Source: Methylotenera sp. RIFCSPLOWO2_02_FULL_45_14
GTDB taxonomy: Bacteria > Pseudomonadota > Gammaproteobacteria > Burkholderiales > Methylophilaceae
DNA length: 64,000 nucleotides
Assembly: GCA_001803395.1 (NCBI GenBank)
Contig: MHBU01000027.1
Span: 1 to 64,000, forward strand
Reading direction: 5' to 3'
The notes under the pieces: model-generated
Told to the model about the DNA's origin: nothing
Databases searched by the model: none
Seen by the model: the letters and a program-made list of their open reading frames with translations, nothing else
Translations under genes and position numbers: made by a program
Shown: piece after piece, positions 56,611 through 60,067 of the stretch
Position numbering within the stretch: the first letter of the stretch is position 1
Layout of the letters: each line of letters opens with the position of its first letter

Positions 56611-56630
56611 TCAATTCAAAAGCTTGTTTT

Positions 56631-56789
56631 ACCGCCGATAAACGCAGATATAAAAATAGGCAAAACGGATAAAACCAAGCACTTGAATTTATAAAAACAA
56701 TCACCATCATATAAACAAGGTTAAAAATTTAAACCTCCTTTATCAACGCAAACGAAACCCATCTGTTTTTGTCTGCGTTTATCGGCGGT
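56631..56789. repeat. MITE-like element with 18-base terminal inverted repeats
   Basis: ACCGCCGATAAACGCAGA (56631-56648) and its exact complement (56772-56789) flank about 123 bases of A/T-rich sequence without an ORF. The element fills nearly all of the grpE-dnaK gap. The end sequence recalls a short repeat found in intergenic regions of many proteobacteria. No clear target-site duplication is visible. It would form a long hairpin in the grpE-dnaK transcript. Confidence 0.75.
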
Positions 56790-56816
56790 TAATTAAAAAG
56801 TTAAAGGAAATTAAAC

Positions 56817-58742
56817 ATGGGCAAAATTATTGGTATTGACTTAGGTACAACAAACTCTTGCGTTGCTGTGATGGAAGGCGGCAAACCACGCGTGATTGAA
56901 AACTCAGAAGGCACACGCACCACGCCTTCTATCATCGCTTATCAGGAAGATGGCGAAATTTTAGCAGGCGCGCCAGCTAAGCGTCAGGCGGTAACTAACC
57001 CAAAAAATACGCTGTACGCGGTTAAGCGTTTAATCGGTCGCCGCTTTGAAGAAAAAGAAGTGCAAAAAGACATCGGTTTAATGCCTTACACCATTGCTAA
57101 AGCAGATAATGGCGATGCATGGGTAGAGGTGCGCGGCGTAAAAATGGCGCCGCCGCAAATTTCTGCTGAAGTTTTGCGCAAAATGAAGAAAACCGCTGAA
57201 GATTACTTGGGCGAAGAAGTCACAGAAGCGGTCATTACCGTGCCGGCTTACTTTAACGATAGCCAACGCCAGGCGACTAAAGACGCGGGCCGTATCGCAG
57301 GTTTAGATGTTAAACGCATTATTAACGAGCCAACCGCGGCGGCGTTAGCCTTTGGTTTAGATAAACAAGAAGGCGACCGTAAAATTGCAGTGTATGACTT
57401 GGGCGGCGGTACTTTTGACGTTTCTATTATTGAAATTTCCAGTATTGATGGCGAGCATCAATTTGAAGTGCTTTCAACTAATGGCGATACGTTCCTGGGT
57501 GGCGAAGACTTTGATAACCGCTTAATCGACTTTTTAGCAGATGAGTTCAAAAAAGACAACGGCGGACTGGATTTACGTAATGATTTACTGGCAAAACAGC
57601 GCTTAAAAGAAGCGGCTGAAAAAGCGAAAATCGAGTTGTCAGGCGCGACTCAAACTGAAGTGAATTTGCCATATATTACGGCAGATGCCACAGGCCCTAA
57701 ACACTTAGTGGTAAAAATCACGCGTGCAAAATTAGAGTCATTAGTTGAAGATTTAATTGAACGCACGATGGCGCCATGCCGCGTAGCGATTAAAGATGCG
57801 GGTGTTTCAATTGACGATATTACTGACGTGATTTTGGTCGGTGGTCAAAGCCGTATGCCAAAAGTGCAAGAAAAAGTGAAAGAAATCTTCGGCAAAGAGC
57901 CACGTAAAGACGTAAACCCTGATGAAGCGGTAGCGGTAGGCGCAGCAATTCAAGGTGGCGTGCTAAAAGGTGATGTTAAAGATGTGTTGCTACTTGATGT
58001 AACACCGTTATCTTTAGGTATTGAAACTTTAGGTGGCGTGATGACTAAAGTCATCAAGAAAAACACCACGATTCCTACCAAGGCATCGCAAACATTCTCA
58101 ACCGCTGATGACAACCAAAATGCAGTGACCATTCAAGTATTGCAAGGCGAGCGCGAAAAAGCGGCGGCGAATAAATCGCTAGGTCAATTTAATTTAAGCG
58201 ATATTCCACCTGCTCCACGTGGCATGCCGCAAATTGAAGTGACATTTGATATTGATGCGAACGGCATTTTGCATGTTTCTGCCAAAGATAAAGCAACTGG
58301 TAAAGAAAATAAAATTACCATTAAAGCCAACAGTGGTTTATCTGAAGCTGAAATTCAGCAAATGGAAGAAGATGCCATTAAATATGCGGATGAAGATAAG
58401 AAATATCGCGAGCTTGTAGATGCGCGTAATGCAGCAGATGGCATGGTACATTCAGTGAAAAAATCACTGGTTGAGCATGGCGATAAATTAGACGCCGCTG
58501 AAAAAGAAGCGATTGAAACCGCACTTAAAGAGGTTGAAGAAGTATTGCAGTCGGATGATAAAGACACCATTGAAGCCAAAACTGCCGCCTTAACTGAAGC
58601 CTCACAAAAACTGGGCGAAAAAGTCTATGCGGCGGAACAAGCAGAAGCCAATACACAAAGCGCGCAACCAAGCACTGAAGGCGAAAAAACGGTGGATGGT
58701 GATGTAGTAGATGCGGAGTTTGAAGAAGTGAAGAAAGACTAA
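56817..58742 (+). CDS. dnaK: Chaperone DnaK (Hsp70)
   Basis: The ATP-driven Hsp70 chaperone, 641 residues. Hsp70 signatures are complete: [17 protein letters not shown] at the N-terminus, [14 protein letters not shown] near residue 192, and [17 protein letters not shown] near 340. The substrate domain contains [15 protein letters not shown]. The C-terminal tail ends [13 protein letters not shown], the typical proteobacterial DnaK end. The ribosome site AAAGGAAA is well placed. It is separated from dnaJ by a repeat-rich gap. Confidence 0.98.
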
Positions 58743-58747
58743 ATCGC

Positions 58748-58864
58748 AGTCGTTAGTTTGCAGTCGTTAGCGTCCACCATGATGCTAACGACTTTTGCGC
58801 TAATAGCGGCCAACTAATGACTATCCACTACTCACTAACGACTAAACACCACCAACTAGCGACT
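58748..58864 (+). repeat. Short direct and tandem repeat array between dnaK and dnaJ
   Basis: AGTCGTTAGT (58748) and AGTCGTTAGC (58762) are direct copies 14 bases apart. The reverse form GCTAACGACT follows at 58784, and then ACTAATGACT, ACTAACGACT and ACTAGCGACT occur at 58813, 58834 and 58855, exactly 21 bases apart. The last copy ends five bases before the dnaJ ATG. Confidence 0.8.
58762..58797 (+). terminator. Hairpin with short T run after dnaK
   Basis: AGTCGTTAGC and GCTAACGACT form a perfect 10-base stem with a 12-base loop, followed by TTTT. It lies 20 bases after the dnaK stop and may reduce read-through to dnaJ. It is built from two members of the repeat array. Confidence 0.55.
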
Positions 58865-58869
58865 AAATT

Positions 58870-59994
58870 ATGGCAAGTAAAAGAGATTATTACGAAATAC
58901 TGGGCGTGAACAAAGACGCTACTGAAGAAGACATTAAAAAGTCTTATCGCAAATTGGCAATGAAGTATCACCCTGATCGCAACCCTGACAACCCAAAAGC
59001 TGAAGAACAATTCAAAGAAGCAAAAGAAGCCTATGAGATGCTCTCAGATGACCAAAAACGCGCCGCTTATGACCAATACGGTCATGCTGGCGTAGAACAA
59101 GGCGCAGGTGCGGGCGGCTTTGGTGGTGCGGGCTTTGGGGACGCCTTTGGCGATATTTTTGGCGATATTTTTGGCGGTGGCGCACGTGGTCAACGCAGCA
59201 ATGTGTATCGCGGTGCAGATTTACGCTACAACATGGAAATTAGCCTAGAAGACGCAGCTAAAGGTACCGAAACCAAAATCCGCATTCCAGTACAAGCCGC
59301 TTGTGAACCCTGTAAAGGCACTGGTGCAAAATCAGGTAAATCTCCTGTGACCTGCACCACTTGTGGCGGTCATGGCCAGGTACGTATGCAACAAGGCTTC
59401 TTCTCTGTACAGCAAACTTGTCCTAAGTGTCATGGCACAGGCAAGATGATTAAAGATGATGACAAGTGCGGTTCTTGCCACGGCGCTGGTCGTGTTAAGC
59501 AAAATAAAACCTTATCGGTCAAAATTCCTGCTGGTGTGGATGAAGGTGATAGGATTCGCTTAAGTGGTGAAGGTGAAGCTGGCGTGAATGGTGGCCCAAC
59601 GGGTGATTTGTATGTAGTCGTACACCTCAAGCAACACGACATGTTTCAGCGTGATGGTGGCAACCTACATTGCGAAATGCCTATCAGCTTTAGCACCGCA
59701 GCACTTGGTGGCGAAATTGAAGTCCCCACGTTAGATGGTTCAGCCAAGATGAAAATTCCTGCTGAAACACAAACGGGCGGTGTATTTAGATTACGTGGCA
59801 AGGGCATTAAACCACTACGCTCAAGCGAACATGGCGATTTAATGGTACATGTAGTGGTTGAAACGCCAGTAAAACTAACTACCCGCCAAAAAGAACTGTT
59901 ACGTGAGTTTGAAGAAAGCACGCAGGCTGACGCTGGCAAGCACAGCCCAAAAAACAAAAGTTGGATGGATAAAGCTAAAGACTTTTTTGCTTAG
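58870..59994 (+). CDS. dnaJ: Co-chaperone DnaJ (Hsp40)
   Basis: Delivers clients to DnaK and stimulates its ATPase. The 374 residues contain the J domain (1-70) with YHPDRNP, a Gly/Phe-rich linker (about 75-115), four zinc-binding repeats ([32 protein letters not shown]; about 140-215), and two substrate-binding beta domains. No clear ribosome site precedes the ATG; the bases there belong to a 21-base repeat array. It is the third gene of the heat-shock locus. Confidence 0.97.
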
Positions 59995-60031: not shown

Positions 60032-60067
60032 TTAGCCAGGATTTTCTATTAGGAAAATCCTGGCTAA
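60032..60067. terminator. Perfect hairpin between dnaJ and murI
   Basis: TTAGCCAGGATTTTC and its exact complement form a 15-base stem with a six-base loop between two convergent genes. No T run follows on either strand, so it may act as an mRNA 3'-end stabiliser or a terminator of unusual type. Confidence 0.6.

Follow-up and report, generated by a model that had tools for sequence, protein, structure and literature searches.

The 127-bp spacer between dnaK and dnaJ in the 64-kb window (the whole stretch of DNA analyzed here) is occupied by short, ordered repeats that run up to the start codon of dnaJ. This raises the question of what the repeat unit is, whether the array acts as DNA or as RNA, and where such an arrangement comes from.

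Organization of the dnaK-dnaJ Spacer

The features of the region are listed below, in coordinates of the window.

56817–58742, + strand: dnaK, ORF of 641 aa, the 5′ neighbor; its stop codon lies 5 nt ahead of the first repeat unit
58743–58869, + strand: dnaK-dnaJ spacer, almost wholly an inverted heptad element (sequence, repeat search, RNA fold z −3.4)
58748–58771, − strand: R arm, minus-oriented heptads AGTCGTT AGTTTGC AGTCGTT AGC, with exact copies at 58748 and 58762 in a 7-nt register
58748–58822, + strand: predicted outer stem between the first R unit and the first F unit (58812–58822), enclosing the hairpin (minimum-free-energy fold only)
58762–58793, + strand: 13-bp hairpin, arms 58762–58774 and 58781–58793, loop 58775–58780 (RNA fold z −6.2)
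58793–58796, + strand: four-T run, a weak terminator-like tail directly 3′ of the hairpin, followed by GCGC
58813–58869, + strand: F array ACTAATG ACTATCC ACTACTC ACTAACG ACTAAAC ACCACCA ACTAGCG ACTAAATT, identified from sequence and lag-7 register; stops at the dnaJ ATG
58870–59994, + strand: dnaJ, ORF of 374 aa, with an ATG start that lacks a Shine-Dalgarno (SD) sequence

The six copies described in the first-pass annotation are confirmed. They resemble ACTAACGACT on either strand, each with at most one mismatch, and lie at positions 58748 (−), 58762 (−), 58784 (+), 58813 (+), 58834 (+), and 58855 (+). The positions bear out the reported spacing of 14, an inversion, and then 21 and 21, and 5000 dinucleotide shuffles of the spacer gave a mean of 0.03 and a maximum of two copies; in 300 shuffles the best 10-mer of any sequence reached at most three. 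The true repeat unit is a degenerate heptamer, ACTANNN (consensus ACTAACG), and the units ACTATCC, ACTACTC, ACTAAAC, and ACCACCA lie between the copies noted at first. Among 32 relatives the distance from one ACTA to another is a multiple of 7 in 173 of 204 cases, with spacings of 7, 14, 21, 28, and 35. Since the register is 7 nt, the spacings of 14 and 21 nt correspond to two and three units rather than to helical phasing.

The degenerate 7-nt units make up one inverted array across the spacer: R units come first, then a hairpin, then F units. The complementarity of R and F and the predicted folds indicate that the terminal sequences give a long RNA stem, the exact pairing partner of the predicted outer stem differing from relative to relative. 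Rfam gave no match at the gathering score in the window.

Other repeats were observed nearby. The grpE-dnaK spacer contains a second inverted repeat (56628–56654 and 56766–56792) with 27-nt arms that are 89% complementary and 111 nt apart (RNA fold z −5.2); in one family of the same order, three loci carry an IVP (23S rRNA intervening sequence protein) gene in this spacer. A perfect 12-nt tandem repeat of 2.6 copies (TTTGGCGATATT, 59146–59176) lies within the Gly/Phe region of dnaJ. A perfect 15-bp inverted repeat with a 6-nt loop (60032–60067), located 3′ of dnaJ and before the convergent murI, is likely a bidirectional terminator.

The Central Hairpin Covaries on the Sense Strand

In an alignment of 30 distinct homologues, base pairing of the 13-bp stem is kept in 389 of 390 cells (99.7%) and two-sided changes occur at five of the 13 pairs, a result equaled in 0 of 500 shuffles; the homologues share kinship, so that these counts do not represent independent events. 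Because the alignment was collected by an outer-arm pattern that left the loop-side pairs 10–13 free, these four pairs provide the strongest evidence of covariation, and three of them show two-sided changes. GU wobbles are found at seven stem positions, where they pair on the dnaK-to-dnaJ strand and are mismatched on the opposite one (389/390 cells pairing on the + strand vs. 367/390 on the − strand). This asymmetry suggests that the hairpin forms in the RNA transcribed from the operon, rather than as a cruciform in the DNA or in an antisense transcript.

A TTTT or TTTTT tail is kept in all 30 aligned homologues. The terminator features comprise a strong stem and just 4–5 U followed by GCGC, and a terminator scan made no call. 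The hairpin class occupies the dnaK-dnaJ junction in 32 of the 50 readable genomes of the genus, and the exact pattern is present at one locus per genome in 23 of 41. Hairpins of unrelated sequence are found at this junction in 10 of the 50 genomes, suggesting that the junction may favor a hairpin irrespective of where it came from.

The Array Abuts a dnaJ Start Without a Shine-Dalgarno Sequence

The last copy had been noted to cover the place where the dnaJ ribosome site should be. In agreement with this, no SD-like 4-mer was found within 20 nt before the dnaJ ATG, either here or in the 32 genomes of the genus that share this type of spacer (0/32), and the last ACTA ends 4–7 nt before the ATG in 22 of 31 genomes. 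Among 240 long ATG ORFs sampled from the genome, an SD-like 4-mer is present in 88 and absent in 152. The last 25 nt of the spacer have a mean predicted unpaired probability of 0.77, and values are mostly 0.55–0.8 across the ACTAACG class. Masking of the dnaJ start by long-range R:F pairing was considered and is not general, as these nucleotides remain largely single-stranded in spacers of the ACTAACG class, although they are paired in certain other heptad classes (e.g., in genome G071). An effect of the array on the translation of dnaJ is plausible.

Occurrence in the Genome and the Genus

The first-pass annotation had proposed a genome search for the unit. In the 2.1-Mb genome CTAACGACT occurs 12 times, four of them at this spacer; beyond it, arrays are few in this genome and mostly lie in operon spacers. 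In a sample of 464 kb (400 kb of genome stretches plus the 64-kb window) it is present in approximately 5 of 295 spacers, all between co-directional genes, and the spacers of this sample show no genome-wide 7-nt periodicity. A dispersed uptake sequence or generic terminator repeat is ruled out by the genome-wide rarity of the unit and the single locus of the hairpin.

The array is ordered and kept across relatives, so that a lack of conservation, named in the first-pass annotation as a refuting outcome, does not apply, and its arrangement recurs at other operons of the genus. R units followed by F units are found in the iscS-iscU, iscU-iscA, glyA-nrdR, guaB-X-guaA, and ftsA-ftsZ spacers. The hscB-hscA and purE-purK spacers contain only F or only R units, and in the carA-carB spacer F units follow a different hairpin. 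The F units also abut an ATG without SD at iscA, hscA, nrdR, guaA, and carB. A slippage-prone copy number, as suggested at first, receives limited support: genome G069 has a perfect tandem run ahead of dnaJ, but the arrays of most lineages are stable and degenerate. Elsewhere in the genome of the window, a perfect (ACTAACC)n run of approximately 13 copies (G000:C16:23215–23315; approximately 1480–1595 of locus L006) lies beside the start of a ferredoxin-like gene and is a candidate locus for copy-number variation.

Inverted Heptads Frame PF05635 Genes in Related Bacteria

In other lineages the dnaK-dnaJ spacer contains inverted heptamers of different sequence (AGGGACT, CACAGAG, GTTTCAC, GGGTGAT, GAGGATT, and GGGAAGG). 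The ACTAACG heptamer is found again in the dnaK-dnaJ spacer at two Gallionellaceae loci, which may reflect convergence, common descent, or transfer. Some inverted-heptad spacers enclose a small ORF that matches PF05635 (23S_rRNA_IVP; E 5e-36 in genome G064) and the four helix bundle family TIGR02436 (E 4e-39 to 5e-33); the protein is related to PDB 2gsc and, weakly, to Avd. At dnaK-dnaJ, such an ORF lies inside inverted heptads in G064 and G073 (same genus), and also in Gallionellaceae, Hydrogenophilus, and Chitiniphilus. The 52 genus genomes contain seven PF05635 genes, all of them inside inverted heptad arrays: guaB-guaA accounts for five, of which one is degenerate, and dnaK-dnaJ for the other two, of which one is interrupted by a stop.

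Across 70 distinct IVP loci, which were in part selected for their site and belong mostly to a single order, a lag-7 identity of at least 13/21 on both flanks was found for 44 of the 70 genes vs. 0 of 65 control ORFs at the same loci. An explanation of this lag-7 excess by base composition alone is ruled out by lags 5, 6, 8, and 9 and by the control ORFs. Upstream and downstream 21-mers are inverted copies of each other (at least 17/21) at 50 of the 70 loci vs. 1 of 65 controls, and in approximately 5% of mismatched pairs. A tree of the IVP proteins clusters by site, with 3 changes for the dnaK-dnaJ proteins vs. 10.4 in shuffles.

Gene-bearing and gene-less (solo) forms occupy the same sites. 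In G069 the ACTAACG heptamer bounds a full element at guaB-guaA and recurs as a solo array at dnaK-dnaJ; G064 shows the reciprocal distribution for GTTTCAC, with the full element at dnaK-dnaJ and the solo array at guaB-guaA. No PF05635 ORF is present in the spacer of the window or in its own genome, so that no direct observation supports the loss of an ORF at this particular locus.

Two observations were made at guaB-guaA. In the genome of the window this spacer (L401) carries inverted CACAGAG-type repeats, TAGCCACAGAGAACACA...TGTGTTCTCTGTG, without an ORF, and the same spacer in relatives contains a full IVP gene. Furthermore, two species with differing dnaK-dnaJ spacers (loci L397 in G064 and L404 in G035) have identical 85-nt guaB-guaA spacers, which may reflect recent transfer or a contaminant contig.

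Interpretation of the Array

Similar arrays of related bacteria flank a small gene of the type known from intervening sequences (IVS) of rRNA, which makes the array look like the residue, without its gene, of a mobile-type element that has been little described. It has the stem and the heptads, lacks the ORF, and lies in an mRNA spacer, and we therefore read it as a solo, heptad-bounded IVS-like element that is, on balance, probably kept as an intercistronic RNA hairpin and as an SD-less leader of dnaJ. The full form would consist of R heptads, a PF05635 ORF, and F heptads, and we infer that the ORF has been lost here; the element may also have been mobile. The central units would fold into the 13-bp stem-loop within the dnaK-dnaJ mRNA, where it has been kept across the genus. 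This intercistronic stem could separate the expression of dnaK from that of dnaJ through RNase processing, 3′-end protection, or partial termination, and may in this way affect DnaJ levels. The last F units, predicted to be mostly single-stranded, may replace the SD sequence, the G-poor leader that they form loading ribosomes for dnaJ.

A different order of events is conceivable, in which IVP genes insert into heptad arrays that might have arisen independently. A broader reading, which we put forward tentatively and consider possible rather than probable, holds that PF05635 genes are widespread selfish elements that colonize operon spacers. Each would be bounded by inverted, lineage-specific heptamers, with a protein related to the Avd-like pentamers recognizing the RNA or DNA stem and with site-specific subfamilies (dnaK-dnaJ, guaB-guaA, rfbA, and others); solo arrays like the present one would then be domesticated intercistronic regulatory hairpins.

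Several other explanations were weighed against the solo IVS-like element. The DNA-binding protein array with helical phasing, proposed in the first-pass annotation from the three copies at exactly 21-bp spacing, is very improbable: the 21-bp distance amounts to three units of 7 nt, other multiples occur in relatives, the 10-mer is rare in the genome, and the core varies like a sense-RNA hairpin, tolerating GU wobbles on that strand only. A neutral simple-sequence (LSSR) array produced by polymerase slippage would fit the perfect runs at G000:C16 and in G069, and in many bacteria no other long simple repeats are as common as heptamers (Mrazek et al., as cited in PMC4679880). Such slippage would however leave arrays merely tandem, and not inverted as found here, around a hairpin that is selected at compensating positions, and the unit would hardly be confined to the few co-directional spacers of the survey; we consider a neutral origin improbable.

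An ordinary intercistronic hairpin that controls the DnaK:DnaJ ratio as an attenuator or by stabilizing the mRNA, with the heptads as slippage copies of its arm and no tie to IVP genes, agrees with the hairpin being the conserved part while array lengths vary, and with the unrelated hairpins at the same junction in relatives that lack heptads. We nevertheless find it doubtful, as it leaves unexplained the minus units upstream and plus units downstream, the different inverted heptamers of other lineages at dnaK-dnaJ, the same unit in the isc, hscB-hscA, glyA-nrdR, carA-carB, ftsA-ftsZ, and guaB-guaA spacers, and the association with IVP genes. The heptamers could also be loading sites for ribosomes or for S1 or cold-shock proteins before SD-less starts, as considered for the TAACTGA repeats of Beggiatoaceae, which have the same placement without SD (PMC4679880). 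That F units abut the SD-less dnaJ ATG in 32 of 32 genomes, and do so at five further genes, speaks for this explanation; the R units and the covarying hairpin stay outside it, and SD sequences are absent from most genes of this genome anyway. As the primary explanation it is possible yet rather unlikely, and a translational role of the F units can be secondary to the solo IVS-like element rather than in competition with it.

To our knowledge, neither heptamer repeats nor S23/IVP proteins have a known function, although both are common, and the two have been puzzles for a long time. The systematic framing of non-rRNA IVP genes by inverted heptads, together with gene-less arrays of like construction in the same operon spacers, unites the two in one testable element and suggests how essential operons such as dnaK-dnaJ gained intercistronic RNA stems and SD-less starts. 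In the open-access literature we found no published link of non-rRNA IVP genes with heptad arrays, which is weak evidence of novelty; the parts (IVS elements, heptamer repeats, and intercistronic stems) are known, and their combination was not met there.

Comparison With Known Systems

The TAACTGA repeats of Beggiatoaceae, of which 169 sets, nearly all direct and one indirect, occur in one genome (MacGregor, 2015; PMC4679880), resemble the present array as intergenic, forward-oriented 7-nt units with TAA that end just before SD-less starts. They differ in the heptamer (ACTANNN here) and in number, a handful of arrays being present here vs. 169 sets, and no flanking IVP gene has been described for them. 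Heptamer LSSRs and the STRR heptamers of cyanobacteria are likewise intergenic tandem 7-nt units, but they have not been described as inverted around a covarying hairpin or a gene. Elements of the MITE/REPIN type share the occurrence of short, palindromic, ORF-less forms alongside gene-bearing forms; here, in contrast, no transposase or target duplication was found, and the hairpin is single-copy at a fixed junction.

The intervening sequence of 23S rRNA is a stem that carries the S23 ORF, and RNase III cuts its terminal stems. In both systems inverted termini give a long RNA stem, the full form contains a PF05635 ORF, and shorter forms with a reduced ORF exist. Heptameric repeats adjoin the ORF there as well: in the 23S IVS of Coxiella burnetii, which is excised by RNase III, GACAGAT repeats lie just before the S23 ORF (PMC4990558). 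The present elements are located in the spacers of protein operons instead of in rRNA, and the copy in the window has no ORF. Given its site between dnaK and dnaJ, we do not file the array as an rRNA IVS but only as an element working like one, which would make it an operon-spacer counterpart of the 23S rRNA intervening sequences.
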